The notes beneath the pieces are model-generated. The model worked only from the letters and a program-made list of their open reading frames with translations. It ran no database searches and had not been told where the DNA came from. From Medicago truncatula (Eukaryota > Streptophyta > Magnoliopsida > Fabales > Fabaceae), in the NCBI RefSeq assembly GCF_003473485.1, contig NC_053042.1:40824762-40888761 (forward strand): a stretch of DNA of 64,000 bases. Direction: 5' to 3'. The translations under genes were made by a program, and so were the position numbers. Shown one piece after another: positions 2,899-61,075 of this stretch. Each line of letters starts with the position of its first letter. Position 1 is the first letter of the stretch.

Positions 2899-3779
2899 TT
2901 CTAGCTACTATTACATCAATTTAGCTAGTAGTGTTTTTTTTTTTTTTTTTTGTTCTTCTGAAAGAAACCCTTGTTTTCTTCATCTTGTGGAAGACTTGCT
3001 TTAAATAGATTGTCTGATTTTACATGTGTAAGTGAATCATGTAATGTTTTGTGAAACACGATACGAATGTCACATCACATGTAAAAATTGTTTGTTAATT
3101 TGGACCAAGGTACAAATGTGTGTAGTGTGTTGATTATAATTTGAAATTTAGAATAATATAAAATTATTTAGAGGTGTCATAACAACTATGTAAAAATCTA
3201 GAATTGATTTAATTATTAAATATCGGGGTTGTCTAATATGGATCAAAGGGTGGATTCTCTTATTATTTTTACAAATTTATTGACTTTAAGTGATAATTCA
3301 CTACTATTACCCTAGGTATTATAATTGGATCTAGAGTTACTCTCTTCACTAAATAATTGTTTTAGATACATCAGATTATGTAATTGTGACAAAGAATTTA
3401 GTGGTCGATGATGCTTTTGATGACATTAGTTTTGTCCTAAAAAATTAGGATTTTGTGTTAGATAAACGGTGCTCTTGAATTAAGAAATTGGTCTTCGTCT
3501 ATTTTGCTAAATTGTTGCGAGCATAGAGTCATTAATTGCAATGGCTAGAACCTCGTTTACCAAATAGTGACAAAGAGAGAATTCAACCAATCCTCTGGAA
3601 TGCTTTTGATCATCATATATTTCAGTTAATTTACTTTCAAATTCAAAACCAAAGGTTATGTGAATCACCTTAATTTATCACTTAAGTAAAACAACATTTG
3701 TTGAGTTAATCGATATATCGTAATCCCTATGGATATGAATTTTTATTAGCTGACGATATTTTCGTATGATTGTCAAACC
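2899..3779. other. Intergenic, upstream of NF-YB
   Basis: This holds the 5' flank of the minus-strand NF-YB gene, including a long T-run near 2933-2951 (an A-run in the transcript). The remainder is AT-rich and shows no recognisable gene. It may include more of the decayed copia element that is recognisable from about 3780. Confidence 0.5.
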
Positions 3780-17198: not shown

Positions 17199-17207
17199 TA
17201 TAATATA

Positions 17208-17837
17208 GGTTTAAATACTCTTTTGGTCCTTTAAGTATTTAGTTGGTATCGCTTTGCTCCATTAACTAAAAAAAAAATTGTTTGAGTACTTTAAATTTTT
17301 TTTTTGTCTCGTTTTGGTCCTTTCTGTTAGGTTTCCGTTAGGGTTTAAAAAAAAAAGTTAACTCCTGGACACTTGTCACCTTGTCATTGGCTCTGAGATT
17401 TTTTTTACAAAAAAAAAATTAATATATTTTTTTTAAAATATATATTTAAAAAAAACAAAAGCCAATGACAAATTGACATGTGTCACCTTAAAAAAATATA
17501 TATATATATATTAAAAAATAAATTATTAACGTTTTTTATATACTATTTTTTTTTATCTATAAAAAAAAGAAATTTTTATATATTACTTTTATATTAAAGT
17601 AATTATTTTTTTAATATTTCTTTTTTTTTATAAAAAAGTAAAAAAAAAATCTCAGAGCCAATGACAAGGTGACACGTGTCCACACTTAATGTTTTTTATT
17701 AAACCTAACGGAAACCTAACATAAGGGACCAAAATGAAACAAAAAAAAACTTAAAGTACTCAAACAATCTTTTTTTTAGTTAAAGAACCAAAACGATACC
17801 AATTAAATATTTAAGAGATCAAAAGAGCATTTAAGCC
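17208..17837. mobile_element. Mutator-type foldback/MITE element (copy 1 of 4) with 9-bp TSD
   Basis: The ends are inverted: the left reads GGTTTAAATACTCTTTTGGT and the right, reversed, GGCTTAAATGCTCTTTTGAT. The arms pair over at least 150 bases, including CTCAGAGCCAATGACAAGGT on the right and its complement on the left. The element is flanked by a perfect 9-bp direct repeat TATAATATA at 17199-17207 and 17838-17846. Nine-base duplications are the hallmark of Mutator-like transposition. The centre is very AT-rich and has no ORF. A G-box core (GACACGTGTC) lies in the right arm at about 17680. Confidence 0.85.
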
Positions 17838-17846
17838 TATAATATA

Positions 17847-28400: not shown

Positions 28401-31400
28401 TTCTTTTATGGTGCCGGTCAAGAAAAATAGCTCCACCATAAAGAGGCCATGTAACCTTGAATCCAGGGTAAAATTACCATCAGCAACAAAATATCAAAAC
28501 AAGTAATATAACCAAAAAAATGGCATGAAATGTCATTTCAATTGTTTTGTAAGACTTAAAATTTACTTACTATATCATCTGAATTCCCAAACTCCTTCCA
28601 ATGCATTTTCAAATATTCAGTCACCTTTGGAACATCCTGCCGACGAAAGACATCCCAAAGAACTCCAGGATGTGTTATCTCAGAGACGTCTCCATTTTCT
28701 CTTAATGGAATTTCAGAATTGACCAAATTCCCTTCAGCACTAGAATAAACTTCAACCCCTTGATCCATAGTCGAATCTTTCTGGTCTGATTCTAAATCCA
28801 GTCCATTAATTTTTGTATAAAAGGATGAATCGGGTGAACTCGCTCTTGAACATATATCTGGATCCCCATGAGATTCTTTCTCCTCAGATTCCTTAGAAGT
28901 TTTCTGCATCATTTCAACGTTTGTCCGCTGCCAGTCCTTCAGCTTTACTTCACTTGAATGAACCAAAAGGTACACCTGTTGGAAAACAGTAAATTTAGTG
29001 TAAAAAAAACAGTACGGTTGTTACTTCACTCATATAGCAAACTACTTTCCTTTTCTTTCTTCAAATAAATCAAAATTCTAACATTTCACTCTAGAAAATG
29101 TAGCAGGAAAAGGAGACAGATAGACAAAAATGTAGTAGTACTTTACAGTGTTTGGGTAAACAGTTCACATGTTTGGGCATTTGAATTTAAACGGCACAGT
29201 GTTAACAATCGAAAGCTGCGGATGTATAATTACAAATATAATAAAGGCTTAATTGCACTTGTGGCCCCCTAAGTTAATTATGCAATTTTGAGCCCACACA
29301 ACCCCCCCCCCCCCCCCCCCCCCTTTTGTATTTAGTAGTCCCTAATGTGTATTTTGACCTGAAAAATGCTGACATGGTCATTCTTTACAGGTGCCGAATT
29401 GTTATTGGACAAATTGAAATTTAAGAACTTGACTAAAAATGAATATTAGTAAATAAAAAAATGAGGGTACGTGATAGAATCTCCTTTTCTTCATCACTTC
29501 ACTCTCATATGCTCTCTTTCTTACTAAGAGAGTTCTCTTCATCTCAAGACTCAGCCCTTCCTCACTCTCATGAGGTATTATTCTCTTCAATTGCTCCACA
29601 TTCTTGCAATGTGCAAATTCCCTCACAACACAAACAAAAAAAGGGACTTACGGGATTATAATTTCGGATCAGAATTGGAACTAAAAAATAACTAGATTTG
29701 ATAGATATAAATATAAATATAGATTATAAACAAATAGAAAACGAGAGATTTTTACATGAAAAGAAGAAATCGAAAGTAGAAATGAACGAGGATTGTTGAA
29801 TAATATATGGTTTATAGAGAAGAAGAGGAAGAAGATTCGTAAACACAGTGATGTGAGTTACGCAATTAAACAACACCATTATGGACGAGCATGAAGGTAT
29901 ATATGGGTTCAGCTATTGCTTAGTTCTCGGTTTGGGGACAGTCACATACCCTCCTCACTTTTGAGGTTTTCTTTGTAATTTACTAAAATTTACTTGTTAA
30001 TCAATTTTTTAAATTTCAGTACATCCAAGAACAATCTAACCACCTATAAAAATTGGCCATGTCAGCATTTTTTGGGTCAAAATACACATGAGGGTCTACT
30101 AAATGCAAAAGGGGGTAAAAGTGGGGGATTAAAATCACACAATTGAAACTAAGGGCGTCATACACTTTAAAATTTGTGGGGGCCAAAAGTGCGATTAAGC
30201 CTATGAATATAATAAACAGCTTGCATGCATTTATCAGAAAATTTAGAGAATAAATACATAACTAAGCATAAATTAACAGTCAATTATCAAATTAATACAC
30301 TTGAAATTTAAACCAAAACTATAATGAAGTTGCAGTTTGTAAAATAATATGTATCCACTCAAACTCAAAAGTGCATATCTTGGGTTAATGAGGATGGAGA
30401 AATATACCATGTCACGCATATTGAAGTGGAGTTTTGTCACAGAATCACCTCTGCCAAGTTCGTCACTAATCCCATAAGATATATATATCTTGGGTCCTAC
30501 ATCATTCTGCAAGGAGTAATGAGGCAATTTAGCTGCAACATTAAGAAGGCCCCACTTGGAGTGTATATACTGAAGTAAAGGCAGTTTGCTGATAAATTCA
30601 GGTCTTTGGTACAAAAGAAATTCTTCAGATGCACGAGGTGTAGGCCAATCCTTCAGCTTCAATATTTGTGGCCAACCATTTTCAAGAATACGCCCCTCAG
30701 AATATCCTTTCATGAACTGATTAAGCTCGATATCAATCTATCAATAGAAAGAAAATAATCAGCTATAAAGTAGAGTAATTTAAAAAATAATCAACTAGTA
30801 AAGACAGAGGCAATAGAAAATCAATACAATTTCAACTGCCAAAAAGAGATCTACAGATGTGTACCTCGGACCCATCTAAGCAATCTATGGCCTTAACCAT
30901 TCTGTTATCATCTTTCATATTCTCATCTGTTGTCTCAAGAATCCCTCTCCATATGACCAATGGGTCCCAGCTTGAAATTGATGACCTATCAAATACTTGC
31001 TTAACGATGATGGGCTCACCAGTTTTCCAGTGTGTTCTAAACATGCCAATCCCATCAGTTTTGAGTTCTTCAGATGTTGGACAATAAAGATAATTATCAT
31101 TGCTAGCCTCTCTTTGAGAATATTGGCAAAGTCTGAGAGCATTCAATCCGGTTTCTGGCGGACCATCAGCATCACTCGTTCTGCATCCACTAACCATTTC
31201 CTCTACATTTTTTACCAATTTTGCGACCCAATTCATCTTGAAAATCCGACTTAAATTTAATGATGAATAACCACAACCACCATACTCCTTAGGGGGGCAT
31301 GGAATACTTCCATTGTCATTGGATCTCCAGTGAGGAAACTTGCTTAATATGTTTCGATCAGTAGTTTTTGCATGCTCAGTTTGAGGTTCTTCACTCTGAT

Positions 31401-33316
31401 GTAAAGTAGCTTCCCGAAGATCTCGACAACAAATAAGGCACAAATCATATGAACAACTTGGGCAGCGTCGATGATAATCAGTGATAGGTATCCTACATAA
31501 ATTGCTGCAAGAAAACAAAACAACATAAATAATTAGCCATATACTACAAACAAATAGGGAACATCTTCTCATGATGCTTCTGCACCCATAAAAACCATCA
31601 ATTTCAATATAAGTGTCATAGATGTACCAGCACATCTGCTCGTCTGCATTCAACTTTGTCCTTGGAAGATCTATTTCAGCACCTGTGAAAGAAACCATTA
31701 TTTCCACGTCGTCAAATACTAGTACACTCAAGAAAAAAGTAAAGTACAGTCAAATACCAACGGCAGTTCAAGGCTGCAAGCAAACCCAAATAAACTTTAA
31801 AATACATCTTACCACGCAACTTCTTTTCAAGTTCAACTTCAAAACATTGTTCTCGGTGGATCTGCTTTACCACGGGAAGCACTGAAGAGAGCAACACGTG
31901 CAAATACTGTAACTTATCCAGTACAGGTATCTCACGTATCCGAACCTTAATATCAGCAAAACCATAAATTTTATTGACCAGAAAAGGAATTGCATATGCA
32001 AAACTTTGAACGTGTGCATAATCAAATGGTATGCTAGTAACTCTCAAAGTACCTTTATTGAATTATCACTCCGTAAGCAAATTTTACAATTGCATATACC
32101 ACGACATGCAGGACATATCTTCTGAATTTCATCCAATGGAATGTCGGAATACCTGTAAAAAGCACACCATAACATGCAGTCACCATCGGGAAGTAAGGAG
32201 TGGTGAAAAAATCAACCGAAAGAAGGTATCTTCACTAAAATTGCGTGCTCACCATGTTGATATGCAGCTATCACAGTATCCTCTCCTATCACACTTAAGG
32301 CACCAAGTAACATCTTTAACATTCTTCCTACACTGATGGCAAGTCTGCCCGCCAGTTTCTTGAGAAGAATCCGATGTTCCATTAGAAAATTCCTACAAAG
32401 CAATTTTCAAAAAGCAACCTTTCAGTTCATCAACCTAACAAAACACTACCTCAGTTCCTAAATATAAGACCCTCTTGAGAAAATTCTTTATCCCTTTTTA
32501 TAAAACCCCCTCTAAATTTTCAAGTGCATTAATTATTTCTTTACAAACATACCCCTAATTATTTTACATCTTTTTTGGACAATCAACAATAAATACTATT
32601 GTTAAAACATAAACCAACTCTCTCTCTCTCTTGAAGGATAAACCTTTAAGAACAATACTACTTAATAACTAACAAATTTAATACTAGTATCAACTTTGTT
32701 AATTCCAGTGATTTGGCCAATAGAGTCCTATATTTAGCGACGGAGGTAGTAGCTAGCCTAACCATACAAAACTTACAGTGTTGACATCAACATCCATGCT
32801 CCTGCCTGTCATTTTCCCAGCAGAATCGTCACCAGAAGCATGCTGTGAATCATTCGAGACCCAATTTTCTTCAAACAGAACAGCATCCTCATCAGGCGAA
32901 ACATCACCACCATCACCAGGCTTGGAAACATTATTACCAGAAGAAGAACCAAGAACGCCCTCAGGAGTATACCGAAACTGATTCTTAGAAACCTTATCAA
33001 ACAACTTCTTTCCAGAGGAAGTGGAAGAACGATGATTATTATTAATCGCAGTCGAAAGCGGAGCATCAAAATCATCACTCTTACTCTCCAAATTAACATC
33101 AGAATCAGGCTTAGATTTCTTGAGATTAGCTCTCATGGCGGAATTGGCTGCTCTTTTCTTCGCTTGAATGTAATGCTTCTCGCAAACGGTTTTATCTGGC
33201 ATCGACATGGCTGTGCATCTCCATTGCTTCCCGTCTGATCTCTTGCAACGTAAATCGTCTGGAATTCCTACATTCTCATCGATGTTGTTGTTGTTGTTCG
33301 ATCTTGCTTGATCCAT
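25495..33316 (-). CDS. JMJ24: JMJ24-type JmjC protein with RING-like domain; iron ligands substituted
   Basis: I joined 13 exons in frame: 33316-32777, 32392-32253, 32152-32053, 31945-31813, 31682-31628, 31504-30865, 30737-30408, 28975-28571, 28455-28383, 27372-27287, 26089-25970, 25818-25748, 25594-25495, giving 930 residues. Order: WRC domain (LRCKRSDGKQWRCTAM, near residue 22), RING-like fingers (CHQCRKNVKDVTWCLKC at 198, CPACRGICNCKIC at 240), a second Cys-rich block (CCNLCRIP ... CPSCSYDLCLICC), then JmjC. KDM3-type demethylases need His-x-Asp and a distal His. Here the site reads LHFNMRDM (H640, N642) and AGCPFQ (F828), and the usual HPIHDQ block reads WPLYGG. Demethylase activity is therefore unlikely. 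Arabidopsis JMJ24 has this character and acts as an E3 ligase on CMT3 (known for the family, not shown here). Introns hold a MITE, a SINE and a foldback element. Confidence 0.92.
26989..27183. mobile_element. Small MITE with nested inverted ends, in JMJ24 intron 10
   Basis: The left end GGTCTTGCTAACAAGTGCCC and the right end, read in reverse, GGAAATGCTAACAAGTGCCC are inverted copies. Each end is itself a small hairpin: AAGTGCCCTTAGGGCACTT at left, with a slightly longer loop at right. The interior (about 110 bp) encodes nothing. Related end sequences occur near 14576, 15500-15533 and 42830-42860 (AACTTGTTAGCATTTCCCT). I could not settle the target-site duplication. Confidence 0.75.
28044..28180 (+). 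mobile_element. Au-like SINE remnant, in JMJ24 intron 9
   Basis: The sequence runs from AGGGGACCCTTGACACAGCA through GTTACCATTGCCACCATGTG to the tRNA-type B box (ATCACAGGTTTGAGTCGTG), then AGCATCTGGCAAGTGCAAGG and CACAATAGGTCCTATATGGT. That order matches the plant Au SINE family as I know it (GGTCACGGGTTCGAGTCxTGG, CTTGCAAA, ACAATAGACC). No target-site duplication or T/A tail was found, so the copy is probably truncated. Confidence 0.65.
29246..30205. mobile_element. Mutator-type foldback element (copy 2 of 4) with 11-bp TSD, in JMJ24 intron 7
   Basis: The left end reads GGCTTAATTGCACTTGTGGC and the right, reversed, GGCTTAATCGCACTTTTGGC after an extra CATA. Arms pair for about 130 bases and include TGCTGACATGG on the left and its complement on the right. 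It is flanked by AATATAATAAA at 29235-29245 and 30206-30216, a perfect 11-bp direct repeat. It is larger than the other copies (960 bp). A run of 32 C's occupies 29302-29333, and an unrelated interior of about 550 bp (29430-29930) may be captured sequence. Confidence 0.85.
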
Positions 33317-38093: not shown

Positions 38094-41000
38094 ATCCACG
38101 TTTAAGAACACGAGGATTTATATTGTTCAAACATCTAATGTTTTTCAATTTTAATTTGCAAAATGCCATCTAATTTTCAATTAATTATGCTCGGAGGTTT
38201 TGATGAAAACAAAAAAGTATTCTATAAAAACTTGGCAAAATAGAAAACAAGATGACATTTTGGTAATTACAAGTAAAAATAAAAAAGAAAATAGAATATG
38301 TTTCTCCAAACCAAAATCACCATAAAATAGAATATGTTTCACTAGTAGGAACATGTCATAGAACTGGGTTAAGTCGAAAAACCTTAGCAGCTATAATACC
38401 AAAAGACGGAAGTGGATAAAATTACATACCTCAAGAATATGGAGACGGGAATTCTGAGGCAATTCAGCATTTAAAACAGCCGACTTGATCCCAAACTAGA
38501 AGGATAGAGAGGGCAAAGATTAAAAAATGAGAGAGGAAGAAGTGATGAAAACAAAATAACCTCAGATGCAAAACTATAAATGTTCAGACTGGTGGAAGGA
38601 GTGTGGTTGAGGAAATAATTGTAACTAATAAACAAGATTTTCCTGAGTTGAGCAAAACTCCAAATCATTTTGAGCAGACATATTTAAGGCAACAAAAAAT
38701 TCAGATTACAGAAAATATGCTTATTGATTATTATCCATTAAACTGATGCAGTCTAAATATCAATGTGAATTGTTAAAAAAATGTGCCAATATCAGTATAT
38801 GACATGTAGTATGATATAACATGTAAGATTGGATGGATTAAATTTAATTGATGAATACAAAAAGATGCAAATGCTGTCAATAATCATCTATACCAAAATC
38901 TCAAGCTGTTAAATATAGGTTCTTGAATGGTTTTACATCTTAGAAAGCCCTCTCACATAAGAACTATTTGAGCTTTAATCATGAACAAAGTCATAGGTCC
39001 ACTCTACCATGTGATAAAATTTAACTTTTATTACAAAGAATGGGCATGACCAAGTTCAAATTCTTGACCACTTAGAAATATAATCTTTAATATAATGCCA
39101 TTGGCCAACTATGCCGGGTGCATAAACCTGTTAGGTGAAAACTTATCAATGATAAATGTCTGGCACATACCTTCTCCAAAAATAGTTTCAATCTGAAACT
39201 CGTATCTATGTTATTAGTGAATATCAGAACTTTCTTTTGGACTAACTCCAACTTCAACATAGCAAGGATGTAGAGCAACTTATCATTGGCAGGACAATAG
39301 ATCTGATAAAAATATTCAAAGAAAATGGTTAAAAGTGTATCAGCTACACAGGAAAAAATGTTGAACCAGAAGAAAAAATATGTAAATGAAAGAAGTATAT
39401 TGGAAAATAATAATATAATTGTAAAGCTCTTTTCCTACTTAATTAAACCTTTCCTTGCCAAAAACTATGGTTCTTAACCTCTTGGTCTGATACAAGACAG
39501 ATCCCAAATATAGAAAAAAGAAGGCGGTCTCCCGTCTCCAAAGAAAGATATGATACAATATATAAAGATTTAACTTCACCGCAATTAACATTACAATATC
39601 AAGAAGACATGTAGAAAATTTATAGAATGTCTTACCCAGAACTGCTGAACATTTTTAGGGATGACCTCATCCTTACGGTTTCCCACTTCAGGCAGAGTCA
39701 AGATAACGGGGTTGTGTAACATCAACTTTTTTAGTTTGTCAACATCGTCACTGCAGAAGAAAACATTTCGTTAGAAACAATTGCAAATGGACATGATTCT
39801 ACAGAAGACTAATCCTAAAATAATATCACATAACGGTCATTCATACACAGCAATACACTAAGCCAGTACAAGTTTACAGAGATAAACACTTCTCCGATAG
39901 AAAGTATATTATACAACCTTCAAAAGTGCAAAAAGATCATTATGCCAGTTTCTAATTTCTTAATATGAACTATAAAGAAATGATGGGCTAAAACTATTAA
40001 ATAAAAAGCTTAATAGCAGTTTTGGCCCCCTATGTTTCAAGAAGTTGCGATTTTGGCCCCCTAACAAAATAAAATACAAAACTGCCGCTTAAGAATTTAC
40101 CCCTTTGCAGTTTTGGCCCCAGGCCAATTTTGACCAAGTCAATGCACACGTGGACGCCACGTGTGTAACTTTTTTAATTAAAAAAATATATTTTTTAATT
40201 TGTAATAATTATAAAAATAAAAATAAAAATACACATGTGGCGTCCACGTCAGCTCTGACTTGGTCAAAATTGGCCTGGGGGCCAAAATTGCAAAAGGGGC
40301 AATACTTAGGGGGCAGTTTTGTATTTTATTTTGTTAGGGGATCAAAACTGTTATTAAGCCTAAATAAAAATTTAAAAAATTGAGGAATGAGGGATGTAGC
40401 ATCCACGTCCACATTATATTACAAAGCATCTGAGCAAAAAGATAATATATATATATATGATAAGAGGGTGAAAGACAAATGACACACCTTGATGTTGCAG
40501 ACATAAGAAGACACTGGCAACTTCTGGGTATGTGAGGTGTTAAAGCTTTTATGTCATTTTCATACCCATATGATAATAGAAGATCTGCCTGAAAAGATTA
40601 TTTTGGATACCGATCAGGTCATGGCACATAGACAATTGGAACAATTAACAACTGTTCAATGTCTACTTGAATTGGCATGAATAAATCAAAGAGTTTTAGT
40701 CTCCCTCTATTATAGCTATTTGAGATTCAGGTACCCCAAATAATTTGAGTGAAGTTTATCTCTTAAAAAAAAATTATGTCAGTGATTAAATCTCTCCATC
40801 ATTTTCCTTCCACTTAAAACCTCAAATTCTGCTTTTCTAGTCAAAACAAAATTTAAACCTTCTTACATCCAAAATATCAAATTTCACTCAATAAAAAACA
40901 AAACTGAATCATTTTTTTTTATCAAATCTTCATTACATTTCTTAAAGTTCAAAACTTTTGCCCTTGTTTTGACATAAAATACATAATACACTATCAAACA

Positions 41001-47291: not shown

Positions 47292-50250
47292 ATGGTAGAG
47301 AACGCGGAAGATGTTCCGTTCCGGAAGAGACAAAATAAAATTTTGTCGAAATTTCCGGAGATGTCAAACCGCCTAAGGTTGAAGCGAAACCAAACATTGA
47401 TGGAACTTCCGTCCATGTTGAAGCTTCAAAGTATGTTGGCGGCTCCGGTGTCCTCCCATTTTAAGCCCACGAGGTCGACACGGCTAGGTTTTTTTCAGAC
47501 GGCGTTAAGTCGAAAGATAGAGATGAATTGCTTGAGTGGGCGTGTCGTCAAGCAAAAAAGACGGGATTTACAATTGTTACACAAAGATCAGGCTTGATCA
47601 ATCCAATGTTCTGCCTAGTGTGTGAAAGGAGTGGAGCTCACAAAGTGCCGGAAAAAAAAACCGAAGCATGCGAGAACGGGCTCAAGAAAATGTGGGTGCT
47701 TGTTCATGATTAGTGGATATCAAAGTAAGCAAACAAAGGAATGGGGATTGAACATTCTTAATGGAGTTCACAACCATGCGATGGAGCTGGCTTTAGAAGG
47801 ACACATTCTTGCCGGTAGATTAAAGGAGGACGACAAGAAGATTGTGCGTGACTTGACCAAGAGCAAGATGCTTCCAAGAAATATTTTGATACATTTGAAG
47901 AACAAAAGACCACATTGCATGACAAATGTGAAGCAAGTGTACAATGAACGTCAACAAATATGGAAGGCAAATAGAGGTGACAAGAAGCCGTTGCAATATC
48001 TAATCTCGAAGTTGGAGGAGCACAACTATACTTATTACTCAAGAACACAAAGTGAAAGTACTACAATCGAAGATATCTTTTGGGCTCATCCAACATCCGT
48101 TAAGTTGTTTAACAATTTTCCAACGGTTTTGGTTATGGACTCCACCTACAAAACCAACATGTACAAGATGCCAATGTTTGAGGTAGTTGGGGTCATTTCG
48201 ACCGATTTGACATATTTGGTTGGGTTTGGATTTGTGACACATGAGAAAGAGGAAAACTTTGTTTGGGTTTTAAAAATGTTGCGTAAACTTCTTTCGTCAA
48301 AGATGAATATGCCTAAGGTGATTGTTACCAACATGGATATGTCTTTGATGAAAGCGGTTGCAAATGTTTTCCCCGAAAGTTATGCAATGAATTGTTACTT
48401 TCATGTGCAAGCAAATGTTAAACAAAGGTGTGTCTTAGATTGTAAATATCCTTTGGGAAAAAAGGATGGGAAAGAGCTGAGTAATCGCGATGTTGTCAAG
48501 AAGATAATGAGGGCATGGAAAGCTATGGTTGAATCGCCCACTCAGCAGTTATATGCAAATGCATTAGTGGAGTTCCAAGATTCATGCAGTAATTTTCCAA
48601 TTTTCAAAAATTATGTCATGACCACCTTGAATGAAGTGAAGGACAAAATTGTTAGGGCATGGACAGACCATGTGTTGCATCTTGGTTGCAGGACCACCAA
48701 CAGGGTCGAATCGGCTCATGCTTTATTGAAGAAATATTTGGACAATAGTGTGAGTGATTTGGGTACTTGTTGGGAGAAATACATGACATGTTGTTGCTTC
48801 AGTTCATTGCTATACAAACATCCTTTGGTCACAGCGTTAGCGTGTTGGAACATAGATTCAAAGATGTCACTTTGTACTCGGGGTTAGGTGGTCATGTGTC
48901 TAGATATGCTTTGGACAACATTGCTTTGGAAGAGACACATTGTAGGGAAACATTATGCATGGACAATGACATTTGTGGTTGTGTTCAAAAGACATCTTAC
49001 GGGCTACCATGTGCATGCGAAATTGCTACTAAACTCCTTGAAGAGAAGCCAATTTTATTGGATGAGATATACCACCATTGGCTTAGGTTACGTATGGGCG
49101 AAGAAAGTAACGAAGTTGGTTTTTGTGTCGATGTTGAGTTGAAGGCTATTGTAGAACGTCTAAAGAAAATCCCTTTCCAAATGAAGCTTGAGGTCAAAGA
49201 GGGTTTGCGGCAGTTGCATTTCCTGAAACCACCATTATGTCTCCACCACCACGAAAGGTACCAACCAAGGGAGCAAAGAAAAAAGTCGACATTGCGAGGT
49301 CTAAAGGAGAAATTACATCGACTAGTCGGATCCCTTCTTCGTGGGAGGTTGTTGATTCCCAAAATCCGGATAGCCAACCGTCACCATCACCAACAACATC
49401 ATCATATAAAAGGAAAAAAGGTGCCCGTCTTGGTAAAACATCACTTTCCCCACTTCCACCACCTACTCGGTATCCAAAGCCTAAGGCTATCCCGGTTATG
49501 AGTCCTATTGATTATATTCCACGCTTCATGCTTCCATTTATTGAAAAAGTGGTGGATGTTATCGGCGATGGACATTGTGGATTTCGGGCTATAGACGAGT
49601 TCATGGGCTTGACCGAAAAAAATCATCTCATGATCCGTACACATCTTATTCAAGAGTTGATAGATCATAAAGATGATTATGTTGAAGTATTTGCGGGTGA
49701 GGATCGTTATAACTACATTTTAAACGGCTTACGTCCTCCCGCAAATACAAAAAGTTGTGCACATCTTGTTGATAAGCGGTTGACTTTTCCGGACATGGGA
49801 CACATTGTTGCTAATTATTACAAAATGTGTGTGGTCGTGTCGACAAATCTTGAAGTTGGAAACTCAGAATCTTTTTTCCCACTAGGAGGGCCACTACCGC
49901 CGGGTAATAAAAAAACTCCCATCTTGTGCCTTGGGGCAATTCCGAATCATTTCGTTCTTATTTATTTGAAGAATGGTTGTACACTACCTCCATCATCTAC
50001 GGAGTGGCACAATCACAAGAAAGAAGATGCGGTGACTTGAGAAGATGAGTATTTGGATCAACATGAGTTGTTCCGAAAGCTCATGGCTATTGAAAGTGGA
50101 AACAAACCGTCGAAAACACAAAAGGAGTCAAACAAAGCGGCGCCTATTTTGTTGGACACTCTCGAAAAACCAAAGCAACAATTTGAAGTTATTGCGGAAG
50201 ATGAGGAAGATTCTATGTCACTTGATCTTCTCCAATCACTTACCCTTTAA
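47292..50250 (+). pseudogene. Mutator-like (MULE) transposase with C-terminal OTU cysteine protease domain, broken
   Basis: A decayed plus-strand gene read in pieces from several frames. After a frame break near 47600, 47622-48770 encodes a MULE transposase: ILIHLKNKRPHCMTNVKQVY, FPTVLVMDSTYKTNMYKMPM, then PKVIVTNMDMSLMKAV, and MNCYFHVQANVKQRC. The frame breaks at 48780 (one A missing from AAAA), continues in 48767-49215 with a SWIM-like CGCVQKTSYGLPCAC, and breaks again near 49215. 49237-50040 carries an OTU-type protease: VVDVIGDGHCGFRAIDEFMG (Asp...Cys) and LGAIPNHFVLIYL (His). A stop at 50038-50040 separates a last segment ending SLDLLQSL at 50245. At least three frameshifts and one nonsense change make it non-functional. 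OTU domains remove ubiquitin in other proteins; here the role is unknown. Confidence 0.85.
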
Positions 50251-50378
50251 TGAGTGATTTTTTTGTCGGTGTTAGTCCTTTTTTTTTGGTAGAAATTACA
50301 CCGACATATATTTTGGGGTCGAAATTGTAATGCCAATTTTTTGTGGCCAATATATAAGTAACACTATGTAATTTATAT

Positions 50379-50379
<1 letters not shown>

Positions 50380-50442
<63 letters not shown>
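50380..50442. repeat. (AT)n microsatellite
   Basis: About 31 uninterrupted AT units between the transposase pseudogene and the small downstream ORF. Confidence 0.98.
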
Positions 50443-50445
<3 letters not shown>

Positions 50446-50588
50446 AATATGACTTTTATGTGGTGAAACTAGTGCAATACTTATTTATAGCTTATTAATG
50501 TTTACGCATTTGATTTATTCGTTATTACATTCCATTTAATTTTGTTATAATCTATGATTCTTTTCTTAAAGCTTTTTTCAAGTGAGAC

Positions 50589-50933
50589 ATGTCTGAGGTT
50601 GCACAAATTGAAGGGCGTGTTAGGCACTCCGCGTTTAAAAAGACGGTTAAGGTTATGATAACGCCGACGGACTCTCTTGACGATTTGAAGGCACAACTTA
50701 ACACTTATTTTGAGCATCTTGGTGAAAATCAATATACACATCACTTGTTTGGTCAAATGCCATGCATAGACCTAGGAGAAGATAGAGACGAATACGCATG
50801 GAAAACGGCAAGCTATATGCCTTGGCTTATTCGCGACGATAGCGACATAGGATTTATGTTTCGGAATATGGTGGAAGATAATATATTATATATGTATGTT
50901 CGTTCCATATGCAATTGCGTTGAATGTAAGTAG
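50589..50933 (+). CDS. Small ORF of unknown function next to the MULE-OTU transposase
   Basis: Starts at an ATG and encodes 114 residues: MSEVAQIEGRVRHSAF, TVKVMITPTDSLDDLKAQLN, YFEHLGENQYTHHLFGQMPC, then DEYAWKTASYMPWLIRDD and MYVRSICNCVECK. I recognise no domain. The length, good codon structure and lack of stops suggest recent constraint or young age, unlike the broken transposase 340 bp upstream on the same strand. It may be a second ORF of the same element, as Mutator elements can carry two genes. It is not similar to MURB in any way I can see. It could also be a chance or captured ORF. Confidence 0.45.
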   Translation: MSEVAQIEGRVRHSAFKKTVKVMITPTDSLDDLKAQLNTYFEHLGENQYTHHLFGQMPCIDLGEDRDEYAWKTASYMPWLIRDDSDIGFMFRNMVEDNILYMYVRSICNCVECK

Positions 50934-51410
50934 AGATTTAATTTAATGATGTGTAATGAGTTGTTTAATTATGGACACTTTGTAACATTTTGATGAATTT
51001 CAAACGTTTGTGTAATTTGAACCAAATGTTGGTTTAATTTAATTATGGACAATTGTAAAAGATATTGTATTTATCTTGTTTATATCCGAGTTTCAATGTT
51101 GTATGAATTATTTTACCTTTGAAAATACTCTGGTTTAATTACAGTAAAATTTGACCGAAAAAATAGCTTGGAGATGTTCTATTTATCTCAAGATTCTTGA
51201 TTCAAAACTTTTTTTACAATAAAAAAGTCTTTTAAAATGTTTTTTTGGTTACAAAGTCTTTTAAAATGTTAATCCAATACATCCTCCCAAGTTCTTACCA
51301 ATATAGCGAAAATTTCCAGATTTTCCATTTCGCACTTCACACTGAAAATGGTACGTTTCCTATTCTTTCACACCTTCTCCATTTCTCATCTCTTTCTTTA
51401 AACCTCACTC

Positions 51411-54400
51411 ATGACCCATCTTCACAAACACCAATCATCCGTCACCAAATCAACCGGCGGCACAAATCCCCATAATCGCATACCTACCAATCCATCGCCG
51501 GAGCTCGGTCCAGCTTACAACATCAATGCTCACATTTCGCCAGCAGTAACTTCAACACAACAGTTTAGGGTTGGGGTTTCTCCGGAAGCAGAGAGAAACG
51601 ATGGAGTTTCAAGGGTTCTAGGGCACAGTTTCGAAGTGGGTGATTTGGTTTGGGGAAAAGTGAAATCTCATCCATGGTGGCCAGGGTACATATGCAACGA
51701 AGCTTTTGCATCTTCTTCAGCACGACTTGGCAAGAAAGAAGGGTGTGTGTTGGTTGCTTTTTTTGGTGATGGAAGTTACCGTTGGTTTGATCCGGTTCAG
51801 CTTATTCCCTTTGATGAGAATTTCGCTGAGAAATCGAAGCAGGTAAAGTTGAAATCTTTTTCCAATGCAGTGGAAGAGTCTGTTGAAGAAGCTGGTAGGA
51901 GATGTGCTATTGGTTTAATGTGTAGATGTAGGAGTTTTGAGAATTTTCGTCCAACTGAGGTTGAAGGGTATTTTCGTGTTCATGTGCCAGATTATGATTC
52001 TGGAATCTATTCTGTAGCTCAGATTAGGAATGCGAAAAAGGGTTTTAGACCCGCCGAAACACTTGCTTTCATTAAGAAATTGGCTGTTGCTCGACATGGC
52101 GGTGATGACAGATGTTGTAACTTTGCTAAGAATAAGGCTACTGTGTTTGCTCTTCGACGGGCAGTGTTTGAGCTGCATGATGAGAGTAATGTCGAGGCTG
52201 TTACAGCGCAGCCACTGTGTACTTATGATCCCCAAGCTAATCAGCTTGTAATATATTCTGAAGCTCATACCAGGAATGAAAAAAATGGTTTTAGACCCGC
52301 CGAAGCACTTGCTTTCATTAAGAAATTGGCCGTTGCTAGACATTGTGTTGATTGCAGAAGTTGTAGCTTTGTTAATAATAAGGCTGTTGTGTTTGCTTTT
52401 CGACAAACAGTGTTTAATCTGCATGGTGAGACTTATGTTGAGGCTCTTGGTGCGTCACCATTGCGCCATTGTAATCCTCGGACTAATCCACTTGTTCAGC
52501 CTTTGAGTCATCCTGCTAACGGTACACTCTCATTTTCATTAGGTTTGACTCCCATTTGCATATTTGGTTAGATTAGTTTTCAAGTCAAAGGTTTTGAATT
52601 CATGTTCTTTGATTTTCTTGTTAATCATCTAATCAGTTAGATATTTATATTCTAGTAAATATAATATAAGAGGGAATTTCAATTACAGTACAAATTACAG
52701 AATCTTTGTTGGCACACAAAATTGCATAAATCTCATGCTGTTATCAGTAATTGTTTTCAATATTTCCTACACAAATCTTTGGATACAGATAACAGATTGA
52801 AAACATTGTGGTAGTTTTGAATTAACAATGGAAACAGAAAACGAAAATAAAAAATATTTTCTCAAAGTATTCACTAAAAAGGTTGCAACCACACAAGACA
52901 TAACAGGGCATGTTTTCCCTTTCCTTTTTTTCACTTGTTAACTGCTAAAGGCTACCTTAATCTTAGCCTTTTTATTATCCCTTTTCCCTTCGAGATGCCG
53001 AATACTTATTTGAAACCATGCTATTGGAATCTGTATAACTTCATAAGTTTCAACATAAATCAATAAATAAATATTTAGACAAACAAATTGTGAATATCTT
53101 TATTCAATTTTGCCCCCCTAATGTAGAAGGGTACTTTTATGTTCACATGCCAGACTATATCCGTGGAATCTATTCCGAAGCTCAGACCACGAAGGAAAAA
53201 TATGCACATGAAGCGTCTTCGGAACCAAAGCACAAGAAGCGTAAGGGTAAGACTAAGGCCCTAACATTTGTTAGTAGAGATATTTTTGCCAAAGATATTT
53301 TGAAAGTTTATGGTGATGAGAAACAAAAGATGAAATCACAACGAGCTGAAATATGTGGGAGAGTTTGATTGACTTTTGATTGTTGGATTGCATGCACCAA
53401 TGAAGGTTATATTTCGTTAACTGCTCATTATGATGATGTGAATTGAAAGTTGCAAAGTAAGATTTTTGCATTTGCTCACATGGAACCCCACATAGTGGGC
53501 GAGATTTAGCATAAAGCTGCTGGAAACGTTAGATGATTGAGGCATTGAAAAGAAAGTTTTTTCCATCACTTTGGATAATGCATCTTCAAACAACAGTATG
53601 CAAAACTTTTTGAAAGAATATTTAGGGTTGTCAAATAGTTTGTTGTTTGATGGAGAGTTTTTTCATATAAGATGCTCAACTCACATCTTGAACCTCATTG
53701 TTCAAGATAGACTCAAGGTAGTTAGTGATGCATTGCATAAGATTAGACAAAGTGTGGCTTATGTTAGAGAACAAAGTAGAACATTACAATTTTTTGAATG
53801 TGTTAGGAATGTTGGTGATATTGATACTACAATCGGATTGTGTTACTAGATGGAACTCCACTTTTTTTTTGAATGTGTTAGGAATGTTGGTGATATTGAT
53901 ACAACAATCGGATTGTGTTACTAGATGGAACTCCACTTTTAGAATGCTTCAGAGTGCGATTAATTATCGTCGTGCTTTTTATAGCTTAAGTTTGCGCAAT
54001 TCAAATTTTAAGTGTTGTCCTACAAGTGATGAGTGGAGAAGGGCTGAAACAATGTGTGATATTTTGAAGCCATTTTACAATATTACAAACTTGATATGCG
54101 ACTCTTCATATCCTCCATCAAATTTGTACTTTGGAGAAATATGGAAGCTAGAGTGTCTTATAAGATCTTATTTGACAAATGAAGATCTTTTGATTCAAAA
54201 CATGGCTGGAAGTATGAAGGAAACATTTGATAAGTATTGGATTAACTACGGTGTGGTCTTTGCATTTGGGGCTATTCTTGATCCAACCAAAAAGTTTAAC
54301 TTTTTGAAATTTGCTTATCAAAAACTTGATCCACTCACCGGTGAGGAGAAGTTGAAAATGGTTAGGATGACTTTGGAGAATCTTTTTGCCGAGTATGTCA

Positions 54401-57400
54401 AAAATGGGATTCCTTCTAATCCGAGCTCTTCTCAAGTCCAACCAAAAAGCTATGAATGATGTCATTTTCAAATGATGTAAGTTCATATATTCTTTCTTTA
54501 TTCTATTTCTTTTATCAACTATTTTGTTTTTGTTTCTATGAATATTTTGTAACTTGGTTGGGTTGGATCATTTGCGGGAATTTGAATATGATGATAGCCA
54601 ATCAAGTACCAAGATTGGAAAATCTGAATCAGTAGAATTTGATAGGCTGTCTTATTCTTCAAATTCCTACAAATGATCCAACCCAACCAAGTTACAAAAT
54701 ATTCATACAAAAAAAAAAAAAAATTAATAAAAGAAATAGAATAAAGAATATATAAACTTACTTCATATGAAGATGACATAATTCGAGTTTCTCCTCCATA
54801 GCTGGGTTGGACTGAAGAAGAGATCGGATTAGAAGGAATACCATTTTTGACTTACTCGGCAAAAAGCTTCTCCAAAGTCATCCTAACCATTTTCAACTTC
54901 TCCCTCACTAGTCAGTGGATCAAGTTTTTGATAAACAAATTTAAATAAGTAAAGCTTTTTGTTCGGATCAAGAATAGCCCCAAATGCCAAGACTAGTAGT
55001 CATTTCAATATTTGTCAAATTTTTCCTTCATACTTTCAGCCATTTTTTGAATCAAAAGATCTTCACTTGTCAAATAAGATTTATAAGGCACTCTATCTTC
55101 CATATTTCACCGAAGTACAAATTTGATGTAGGAAATGAAGAACCAGATATCAAGTTTGTAATATTGTAAAATGGCTTCAAAATATCACACATTGTTTCAG
55201 CCCTTCTCCACTCATCACTTGTAGGACAAAACTTAAAATTTGAATCATGCAAACTTAAGCTATAAAAGGCATGATAATAATTAATCGCACTATCAAGCAT
55301 TATAAAAGTGGAGTTCCATCTAGTAACACAATCCGATTGTTGTATCAATATCACCAACATTCCTAACACATTTAAAAAATTGTAGTGTTCTACTTTGTTC
55401 CGTAACATAAGCCACACTTTGTCTAATCTTATGCAATGCATCACTAACTACCTTGAGTCTATCTTGAACAATGAGGTTTAAGATTTGAGCTGAGCATCTT
55501 ATATGAAAAAACTCTCCTTCAAACACCAAACTATTTGACAACCCTAAATGTTCTTTCAAAAAGTTTTGCATATTGTTGTTTGAAGATGCATTATCCAAAG
55601 TGATGGAAAAAACTTTCTTTTTAATGCCCCAATCATCTAACATTTCCAGCACCTTCGATGCTAAATCTCGCCCACTATGTAGAGGTTCCATGTGAGCAAA
55701 TGCCAAAATCTTACTTTGCAACTTCCAATTAACATCAACATAATGAGCGGTTAAAGAAATATAACATTCATTGGTGCATGCAGTCCAACAATCAGAAGTC
55801 AAGCAAACTCTCCAACAAATTTAAGCTAATTGTGATTTCATCTTTTGGTTATCATCACCATAAAATATCATTGGCAGAAGTATTTCTACTAACAAATGTC
55901 AGGGCCTTAGTCTTACTCTTCTTGTCCTTTGGTCCAGAAGACACTTCTTGTGGGTACCGGTGGAATTTCCCTAGCTTGGCTCTCAATTTCCCCATCAACA
56001 CACATTTCATGACTACTACTATCATTTAATATTTCAAGCACAAACAGATTGTAATTCGTACAAAATTATAATTTCGGTTCAATTTATTCATTCACTTATT
56101 TATGGATGTTTTTCTTTTAGGGGAATTATGTATGGATGTTAATTACTGCCAGATGGATATCTAGCAGATTGCTCATGTCTAATTATTCTAGAATGTTTTG
56201 TTGGGATAAATTAAAAGAAAGAATAACTTGTGCCTAATTGATATGTTTCTAATCCTTTTTTTATGATGGTTATTATGCTTTGTTCTCCAGCTCCTTCGAA
56301 TAGTCCAGTAATGGTGGAAAAACATCAAGGTAAAGCCGTGGAGAAGCATGAAGACACATGGTCTACAAACCAGGATGGTGTAGCTTCAGCTAAAATATCC
56401 AAAGTAGCTTTTGATGACAAGGGCAAAGAATCTTCAGAAGAAAAGACCAAGAGATTTGAACCCGTTGATGCTGCTAGTAAAAGGCCATTGGTTATGGCAT
56501 TGCCAAGCCAAATTCACGAGACATCTCATTGTATCCTTCTAGAAGGCAAAAATTCTATTGATGTTAAACATGATGGAAATGTAATACTATTAGTACCTCG
56601 TGATGGAGGTGAAGCCATGGAGAAGCATGAAGACACATGGTCTATAAACCAGGATGGTGTAGCCGAAGCTAAAATATCCAAAGTAGGTTTTAAAGACAAG
56701 GACAAAGGATCTTTAGAAGAAAAGACCAAGAGATTTGAACCTATTGTTGCTGCTAGTAAAAGGCCTTTGGTGATGGCATTGCCAAGCCTAATTCACGAGA
56801 CATCTCATTATATCCATCTAGAAAGCAAAACTTCTATTGATGTTAAACATGATGGAAATGTAATACCATCAGTACCTCATGATGGTGTGCTGAAGAAGAT
56901 AAATGTTCAAAAGCGACCCACAGATGATTTGAACTCTGAGTTTTCTGCTGTTGGTGAAAAAAGAAGAAAAACAACCTCGAGCCATGTGGAGAAACCTTCT
57001 ACTTCTGAAAAATTTGCACATCCGTCAGGCAAGGTTGATGTTTCAGCCAGTAAATTTCTGCATGTGTGTAGAAGGCTTCTTTATGAATTGAAAACTATTG
57101 CTTTAGATCCTTTTCATGGTGTTAAAAGAAAGATCCATTCAATTGTTATCAAGTTCTTTTTGCGGTTCAGATCTCTTGCTTACCAGAAATGTTTGCTTTT
57201 ATCGCCACCAACAAAGAATGAAGCTCCTGAAGTCCGTGCAACTAAATCTCCTGATGATCATGCCAGTGCTTTACTGCGTATGAAGCCTGTAAAACACATT
57301 GTTCAACCTGATAATCCAAGTAAAGCTGCGCGAAAAAGGGCTGCCACTGATCGCCAAGAAGAAATTGATGCAAAGAGATTGAAGAAAATGAAGGCATTAA

Positions 57401-58299
57401 AGGCTAGTGATACTGAGAAGAAGGCTGCTACCCAAGCTCCACCCAAAGTAGTTAAACCAGGCTCAACAGGGAAAGTGGAACGTCCAGCTATGCGGTTTGA
57501 GCCGACTGAACTGACCATCAAATTTCCTCCTATGACATCGCTTCCATCTGTTGCAGAGCTGAAGGCAAGGTTTGCTCGTTTTGGGCCTATTCACCAATCA
57601 AGTCTCCGTGTCTCTTCTAAGTCCTCTACATGTCGAGTTGTATTCTTTCGCAAGATCGATGCGCAAGCAGCACATACATTTGCTGTAGCAAATCAATCCT
57701 TATTTGGCAATGCAGATGTGAGGTATTTCCTTAAGGAACTGGAGCTTTCTTCGCCTAATATCTCTGAAGTTGCAAAGGCAAGTGAAGACATTGGTGCCAA
57801 TGAAACACAACCCATTAAGGACCCTGCAGTGGTTCAGCAACCCCTTCCAAAGCCAATGATCCATCTCAAATCCATCCTGAAGAAGAAATCTAATAGGGAT
57901 GTGTTAGGCCAGGGAACCAGTAAACGGACACAACGTGTAAAATTCATGTTAGCTGGGGAAGAAAGTAGTAGGGGTAATAGAAATAACTCCAATCTTGATG
58001 ATGGTAGTGCACATTCTAGTGTTGCCAAGGGTTTTAATACTAAGAACGTTCAAAAGGTCATTTCTCAACCATCTTTGCCCATTCTTCCATTTCATACTCA
58101 GTCTGCTAAAACCACACAGCATAATTTGCATAATTTCGAAATGGCACCGATACATACTCCCAATTTTACAAACACGGGTGCATCAACTTCCACAACTACA
58201 GTTGATATATCACAACAGATGATGGGTCTTTTGACAAGGTGTCACGGTGTTGTTACTAACTTGACGAGTTCAGGCTATGTACCCTACCGTCCACTATGA
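51411..58299 (+). CDS. PWWP-domain protein, PDP type (PRC2/FVE-associated family)
   Basis: Two coding exons, 51411-52521 and 56291-58299, join in frame (split codon G/CT, Ala) to give 1039 residues. The PWWP domain begins FEVGDLVWGKVKSHPWWPG at about residue 74 (SHPWWPG at 86-92) and continues to WFDPVQLIPF. A downstream segment (FRPAETLAFIKKLAVARHGG ... RRAVFELHDE) is repeated 82 codons later. Exon 2 repeats EKHEDTWSxNQDGVA...KISKV after 93 codons, then ends with the C-terminal RRM-like block TELTIKFPPMTSLPSVAELK and YFLKELEL. This architecture matches Arabidopsis PDP proteins, chromatin readers acting with FVE/MSI4-5 and PRC2 (family knowledge). The 3769-bp intron contains a hAT inverted repeat. 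I assume no upstream exon; the ATG at 51411 is the first in frame. Confidence 0.85.
53120..53210 (+). pseudogene. Third, diverged copy of a PWWP-gene exon segment inside the intron
   Basis: Reads NVEGYFYVHMPDYIRGIYSE and then AQTTKE. It matches exon 1 residues around EVEGYFRVHVPDYDSGIYSV (about 51957-52022), with a few substitutions. An AG just before it (ATGTAG) could serve as an acceptor, but no matching donor follows before it runs into the hAT arm at about 53211. It is probably a relic of local duplication rather than a used exon. Confidence 0.6.
53211..55947. mobile_element. Inverted duplication of a hAT transposase fragment (long hairpin)
   Basis: The left arm (53211-54586, plus strand) and right arm (54658-55947, minus strand) are inverted copies with a loop of about 71 nt. 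Both encode the same hAT (RICESLEEPER-like) pieces: TLDNASSNNxMQNFL, EFFHIRCS, LKVVSDALHKIRQSVAYV, then CPTSDEWRRAETMCDILKPF and NITNLI. Both share the same frame break in ATCGGATTGTGTTACTAGATGG, so the duplication arose from an already dead copy. The left arm also has a 75-bp tandem duplication (53796 and 53871). The BED finger and the dimerisation region are absent. It sits in the PWWP-gene intron. Confidence 0.88.
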
Positions 58300-59386
58300 T
58301 AAAGTGGCATCATTTAGATTAGTTTACCAAATCCAATGCAAGAAAAATGAGGACTAGGTTGATTGCGGAGTATTTACTCGAGGAAATGCAAGAGAAGTTT
58401 AATCTTTGTTCAAGTTTTTTTTTTTTGAGGGGTTTGGGTTATGAAATGCAAATGTACTCTACATTGAAAATGACATCTTAGTTATTTTACCTGCCTTACT
58501 TTTCTGTTTCCTTAATTATTACTCCAATCATTTTCAATGTCGGGGTTTTTCCTGCTTCTCATGTTCTTTTATGGAAATAGTTTCAAAACATTAATATTAA
58601 CTCCCTAAAATAAAAATTAAATGATATTAACTGTTTATTAAGTTACTAACTCACTTGATATTTTTTATGTCAAGATTTAATATCTTTTGAAAATGGCTGA
58701 TTTCAGATTCTGTGGCAAATTATGGTTTTAAACAAAGTAGTATATATTTACATACTAGACATTATTCTTGTGTGACCTTGATTAATGATTATGCTACAAT
58801 CAGTCCTACTCAATGCATTTAGGTTTAGCTGTTCTTGACATTTTGCTCCATTTGTTCATAAACCAAAAGTTATTTACATTTCTATATGAACCAAATGTAA
58901 TATATTATATGTAAATAATGAAGAATATAAAAAGAATATTAATGTCCGTCTTTCCGCAAAGTATTTTTTATTTTATATTTTATAAAAAGAATATAAACTT
59001 TTGGTGACTTCTTTCTTTTCAATATTACTCTTATTTAAACTATTTTATTTACAATATATTCATTACTTATTTAATTAAATAATCAAAATTTTCAAATATG
59101 TATACTTTCATATAGAAAGATACTACTTTTTACATAATATTTTTTCTTCCAATGTTAGCATTCGTTTAAACTTGTTTCTACCATTTTTTCTCCTTACCAA
59201 TCAAAATAAAAAATTGAGACAAATGCAAAATATAAAAATACTTCAATTATGTGGGAATAATGAATAAGTGGCAGAGCATAGGTACAAACTACAAGATTAC
59301 AAGATCAAAACAAGAAAATGTAGCATTTTAATTAGAAACATGACTACAATTGTTCTACTCTATAATTATGCTCATTGTTTGATGTG
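58300..59386. other. Intergenic between PWWP gene and MYB gene
   Basis: Convergent gene ends, so the stretch includes both 3' UTRs. AT-rich, with a T-run near 58417. 58850-59240 loosely resembles the 5050-5695 repeat (TATTTTATATTTTA..., ACCAATCAAAATAAAA). Confidence 0.45.
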
Positions 59387-60743: not shown

Positions 60744-60752
60744 TTAATATTA

Positions 60753-61066
60753 GGCTTAATTGCACTTTTGGACCCCTATCTTTTCAAAAGTTGCAGTTAT
60801 GGACCCCTAACTAATTTAAATACAAAACAGCCCCCTATGTTTTGATTCTTTGGCAATTTTGGACCCCCGGTCCATTGTTGACTCGGTCAACGCTGACGTG
60901 GCACCCTAAGTGAGGTGCCACGTGTCAATTTTTTTATTTTTTTTTGCCTTGGGGGTCTAAAACTGCCAAAGAATCAAAACATAGGGGGCTATTTTGTATT
61001 TAAATTAGTTAGGGGTCCATAACCGCAACTTTTGGAAAGATAGAGGTCCAAAAGTGCAATTAAGCC
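60753..61066. mobile_element. Mutator-type foldback element (copy 4 of 4) with 9-bp TSD
   Basis: The left end GGCTTAATTGCACTTTTGGA pairs with the right end, reversed GGCTTAATTGCACTTTTGGA. Arms pair over about 110 bases (CTAACTAATTTAAATACAAA and its complement). A central ACGTG cluster (CTGACGTGGCACC, GGTGCCACGTGTC) resembles G-box/ABRE cores. Flanking 9-bp repeat: TTAATATTA at 60744-60752 versus ATAATATTA at 61067-61075, one mismatch. Interior has no ORF. Confidence 0.88.
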
Positions 61067-61075
61067 ATAATATTA

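Follow-up and report, generated by a model that had tools for sequence, protein, structure and literature searches.

An inverted repeat of hAT transposase sequence, predicted to fold into a long hairpin, in an intron of a PWWP gene of Medicago truncatula

Analysis of a 64,000-nucleotide stretch of the Medicago truncatula genome (assembly GCF_003473485.1, contig NC_053042.1, positions 40,824,762 to 40,888,761 of the forward strand; hereafter the window, whose own numbering is used throughout) revealed a long inverted repeat of hAT transposon sequence inside the intron of a gene encoding a PWWP domain protein. A first reading made from the letters alone (the sequence-only reading) had proposed that transcription of this locus yields double-stranded RNA and small interfering RNAs (siRNAs) directed against related hAT elements. 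The locus is composed of the following features.

51411..52521, + strand: coding part of exon 1 of the PWWP gene (PWWP, PF00855, E 1.8e-19); its splice site is common with a paralogue
52522..56290, + strand: intron of 3769 nt, predicted GT-AG
53106..53200, + strand: degenerate partial copy of host exon 1, adjoining the left arm (75 identical and 19 mismatched aligned bases)
53205..54605, + strand: left arm, an internal hAT transposase fragment in sense orientation, delimited by gapped alignment against the right arm (Pfam hAT-like_RNase-H)
53790..53939, + strand: tandem duplication of 75 bp (99%), confined to the left arm
54606..54638, + strand: loop of 33 nt; left-arm hAT similarity extends to 54628
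54639..55952, - strand: right arm, carrying the hAT fragment of the left arm in antisense orientation relative to the host gene
55953..56070, - strand: continuation of the right arm into hAT 5' coding sequence, unpaired as it has no left-arm partner (end approximate, 56057-56070)
56291..58299, + strand: coding part of exon 2 of the PWWP gene; the spliced frame has no internal stop

The two inverted arms of about 1.3 kb anticipated by the sequence-only reading were thus recovered, and their gapped local alignment gave 1189 identical bases among 1298 aligned (91.6%) with 119 gapped positions, most of which reflect the 75-bp tandem duplication of the left arm. The arms, previously described as very similar, are clearly diverged (8.4%), with an identity per 100-column window of 0.86 to 0.97, and the loop, previously put at about 71 nt, was corrected to 33 nt. 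The ungapped pieces of the repeat are the longest inverted repeats among the 25 of 29 pairs listed for the window and, together with the fold energy reported below, this demonstrates that the repeat is not due to chance. An assembly or read palindrome was ruled out because each arm bears its own mutations, with 53 substitutions in the left and 49 in the right arm when polarised against other hAT copies. A known microRNA (miRNA) gene was likewise rejected, as a search of Rfam at the gathering threshold across 51000-58500 returned 0 matches and hence no known miRNA family in the hairpin.

Folding of the + strand between 53205 and 55952 predicted a minimum energy of −1849 kcal/mol (−1821 kcal/mol for the opposite strand), with 1209 of 1246 pairs formed between the arms. 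Control stretches, for which six positions were drawn and the two overlapping the repeat were dropped, ranged from −503 to −711 kcal/mol (n = 4). The predicted duplex contains 14 perfect runs of at least 21 bp totalling 533 nt, the longest being 83, 76 and 70 bp. The transcribed strand is therefore predicted to form a near-continuous hairpin, so that the supposed potential for long double-stranded RNA was supported at the level of prediction.

Joining position 52521 to 56291 restored a 1039-codon open frame without internal stop codon in the host gene, which appears intact; as frame and splice sites are preserved, disruption of the gene is not indicated. The nearest paralogue, on chromosome 7 (C7, locus L036), showed 39.7% identity to the spliced host protein over 1117 columns and has an intron of 897 nt at the same place, and no inverted repeat of at least 40 nt was found in its 9-kb locus. 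The intron therefore predates the repeat, and its creation by the insertion was rejected on the basis of the shared intron position. Since the gene reads in the + direction with the left arm coming first and in hAT sense, both arms would lie on one transcript, in agreement with the placement of the repeat within a long intron by the sequence-only reading. The exon-1-like fragment at 53106-53200 perhaps derives from a lost tandem copy; in a protein search with exon 1, the next match was the chromosome 7 paralogue (54%), with no closer second copy among the best candidates listed. Both PWWP exons also carry in-frame tandem duplications of their own, at 52001-52492 (246 bp, 78%) and 56328-56885 (279 bp, 91%).

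To place the arms within their transposon family, the left arm was compared with the genome (429.9 Mb, 42 contigs), which returned at least 43 matches, three of them within the repeat and 40 distributed over 17 further places by our grouping, 15 of which were fetched for comparison. The hAT origin of the arms was confirmed by a left-arm frame (53725-54459) matching the Pfam family hAT-like_RNase-H (E 3.5e-24), while the two right-arm frames tested matched 0 Pfam families, and by the structure of the relatives. Frames of copy L014 encode the hAT-like RNase-H as well as the hAT dimerisation (Dimer_Tnp_hAT) domain. Full-length relatives measure 5.17-5.19 kb, start with TAGAGCTGTCAAAA and have TAGAGCTG ends, which the arms do not have; target duplications of 8 bp were read at L014, L016 and L017. 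This end motif conforms to the pattern [T/C]AGNGNNG of plant hAT elements, given with target duplications of 4-8 bp in PMC6027215. Full-length relatives include L013, L014 and L016, which agree with one another at 99.4-99.7% along 5.2 kb and retain an open stretch of 669 codons, a sign of recent transposition of the family.

Within 50001-59000, matches to hAT copies comprised 53197-54628, 54639-55896 and 55904-56070, and the right-arm extension fades close to where L014 probably has a splice acceptor. A further match, 50600-51178, stems from another transposon in the flank of L020, where this segment recurs at 94%. With up to two mismatches allowed, the hAT end motif occurred in the window only at 3169, as chance gives, and not in or beside the hairpin, and the two outer flanks of the repeat have no common word of 6-12 nt that could represent a target duplication. 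As judged from these outer ends, the repeat is not a complete hAT element, being without terminal inverted repeats (TIRs) or a target duplication of its own.

Comparison of the arms with the fetched copies provided information on how the repeat may have arisen. The two arms have a deletion with identical junction points in common, which spans 333 nt relative to L014, or more when neighbouring small gaps are included, while the deleted stretch (~350-390 nt) is kept in 13 of the 15 fetched copies (12 by comparison with the right arm, L018 with the left arm), the status of L020 and L021 not being judgeable. By eye this stretch contains a BED-like zinc finger, yet Pfam reported none in L014. An 11-nt deletion causing a frameshift is also common to both arms, and these 11 nt are present in all five other rows with letters at this position (L011, L014, L015, L018 and L021), eight of the 15 alignment rows having been printed. 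In 26 columns, both arms share a letter absent from all compared copies having a letter there (12 copies used), a number that falls to 12 of 684 columns when presence of L021 is required. Moreover, the inner ends of the arms lie only 23 nt apart on the element (L012 positions 3748 and 3771). Because of the large deletion, the frameshift, the private shared letters and the close inner ends, we interpret the repeat as having arisen by inverted duplication of a hAT copy that was already defective. The main deletion as a spliced intron, and hence a cDNA origin, was rejected, given that L014 has open coding sequence in the missing segment and that a later intron-like stretch is kept in the arms. 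An inverted pair of hAT pieces of at least 150 nt was found at 0 of the 15 other fetched loci, a control that covers this hAT family and no other transposable element (TE) family; L024 has two shorter foldbacks, which lie outside its hAT matches.

The arms have since diverged, with a Jukes-Cantor distance of 0.089. Assuming plant substitution rates between 6.5e-9 and 1e-8 per site and year, this distance would correspond to an arm age of about 4.5-7 million years. With the arms pooled, GC-to-AT transitions (37 over 421 GC columns) exceeded AT-to-GC transitions (17 over 798 AT columns), as in methylated TE sequence that is not under selection. C-to-T changes were more common at CG/CHG (16 of 104 arm-sites) than at CHH positions (52 of 696; p = 0.013, changes common to both arms being counted twice), an excess that fits past methylation.

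A number of observations weigh against a single duplication followed by neutral decay. The tree does not unite the arms (38% of 200 bootstraps), differences between them slightly favour third codon positions (28/391, 31/392 and 47/393; p = 0.04), and perfect runs are clustered beyond 2000 shuffles (permutation p = 0.002); the third-position excess and the clustered runs may each be a sign of constraint, of gene conversion or of an earlier separation of the two arms. The relic L021 is likewise rich in C-to-T changes (CHG 6/16, CHH 29/200), so that this pattern is not special to the locus. The lack of a supported sister grouping and the slight third-position excess would also be in keeping with two separate insertions, in opposite orientation, of the same deleted hAT subfamily, an origin that we regard as quite improbable in view of the close inner ends, the absence of element ends at either arm and the large deletion, which is found in none of the 13 judged copies. 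An effect restricted to the locus itself, whereby the hairpin or siRNAs made from it would direct methylation of the intron and change how the PWWP gene is spliced or expressed, could draw on the intronic position and the methylation-like C-to-T excess; we consider such a role doubtful, as open frame and splice sites are intact and the C-to-T changes are frequent in L021, too.

The proposal that the locus acts as a working trans-silencer, with host transcription giving rise to hairpin RNA and siRNAs that silence hAT copies elsewhere, has several points in its favour. An inverted transposase fragment of about 1.3 kb lies inside a gene, as in the maize Mu killer locus, and 349 of 2693 distinct hairpin 21-mers are exact in at least one of the 15 copies. 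When mismatches are allowed, 631, 1312 and 1875 of 2728 21-mers match L014 at up to one, two and three mismatches, compared to 0, 0 and 7 for a control stretch (0 exact), and some siRNAs could therefore act on this copy. Hairpin transgenes with mismatches are reported to silence more uniformly and to avoid self-methylation (PMC9263138), which makes an arm mismatch of 8% compatible with activity. In contrast, exact 21-mers amount to just 93 of 2728 for each of the full-length copies L013, L014 and L016, with higher numbers in L015 (183) and L018 (169), and in the multiple alignment the distance between the full-length relatives and the arms is 12-13%, or 14-16% when BLAST segments are compared and gaps are included. 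As the full-length relatives are nearly identical to one another, they probably spread after the hairpin arose; the family thus appears to have moved well after the origin of the hairpin, which, with arms diverged by 8.4%, is probably older and did not prevent this spread. An efficient control of the mobile lineage is therefore not favoured. In addition, no TIRs are present in or beside the hairpin, so that element ends would not be targeted directly. Taken together, strong silencing of related hAT copies in trans is disfavoured, as is control of the mobile copies, and we judge a working trans-silencer of the Mu killer type to be unlikely. Very improbable, in our view, is a more elaborate version, in which an intronic trans-silencer couples hAT silencing to transcription of a chromatin reader, splicing frees the hairpin for Dicer-like enzymes, and mismatches prevent self-silencing while older hAT lineages are restrained.

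We therefore favour, as a probable though by no means certain explanation, a neutral, decaying relic of a dead hAT element in an old PWWP intron with little effect on mobile copies. The arms and loop, the deletions common to both arms, their independent decay and the intact host gene can be read from the sequence itself. According to this model, a hAT element whose transposase gene was already incomplete would have become an inverted duplicate in the old PWWP intron and then decayed without clear upkeep. Host transcription would produce a pre-mRNA in which the intron forms a ~1.3-kb duplex, a step we regard as plausible and likely to take place whenever the gene is transcribed. Most of this duplex would be spliced out and degraded, and weak processing of a part by Dicer-like enzymes may yield 21-24-nt RNAs. 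For siRNAs above background in some tissue we see an even chance. The chief targets of such RNAs would be the locus of origin and older hAT relics, with recently mobile copies hardly affected, and relevant trans-silencing of the hAT family appears between quite improbable and unlikely.

Natural hairpins of transposon origin are regarded as initiators of heritable silencing and, to our knowledge, few of them have been described base by base. The hairpin presented here is fully sequenced, located in an intact gene and roughly datable, and its genome contains older as well as recently transposed relatives. Small-RNA data from such a locus could therefore show how much mismatch is tolerated before action in trans stops, whereas a lack of siRNAs would illustrate cleanly that strong predicted folding does not suffice.

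Elsewhere in the window, a MULE (Mutator-like element) transposase was recognized by Pfam in 47622-51178, followed by further frames; one frame of this region, without Pfam match, contains a GDGHCGFRA stretch and presumably resembles an OTU protease. Smaller foldback inverted repeats resembling miniature inverted-repeat transposable elements (MITEs) were observed at 17199-17846, 40051-40347 and 60745-61075. The region 30832-33316 contains a WRC domain beside a frame that by eye resembles a JmjC/IBM1-type protein and had no Pfam match.

Among open-access papers judged by title and the start of the abstract, none was found on this hAT or PWWP hairpin, and the locus may still have been published. 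In kind, it is a natural transposon hairpin as already known from Mu killer, and the resemblance in arrangement pointed out by the sequence-only reading was borne out. In Mu killer, according to PMC3440606, about 1300 bp of mudrA are duplicated in inverted orientation and two copies of TIRA are present, its centre is described as unsequenced, and its hairpin RNA is proposed to result from read-through of a flanking gene. Both loci contain a partial, internally deleted and inverted transposase gene of about 1.3 kb with a gene promoter nearby (PMC3440606). In contrast to the Mutator (MuDR) sequence of Mu killer, the present repeat is derived from a hAT element, lacks TIRs where Mu killer keeps two TIRA copies, and is intronic instead of being reached by read-through from a flanking gene (PMC3440606). 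Its arms are 8.4% diverged and 12-13% distant from the recently moved copies.

A second natural inverted repeat, VIM4-VIM2 of Arabidopsis Cvi-0, was described in a 2026 report, in which a read-through transcript is reported to yield siRNAs (PMC13213937). Unlike the repeat described here, VIM4-VIM2 consists of host genes, and both siRNAs and an effect in trans were measured (PMC13213937). The mismatched hairpin transgenes, in turn, share with this locus an imperfect duplex from transcribed inverted repeats and differ in being designed, for example with 200-bp arms behind a 35S promoter and a chosen target (PMC9263138). TE hairpins arising from rearrangements or nested insertions have also been discussed as silencing triggers (PMC11624286).

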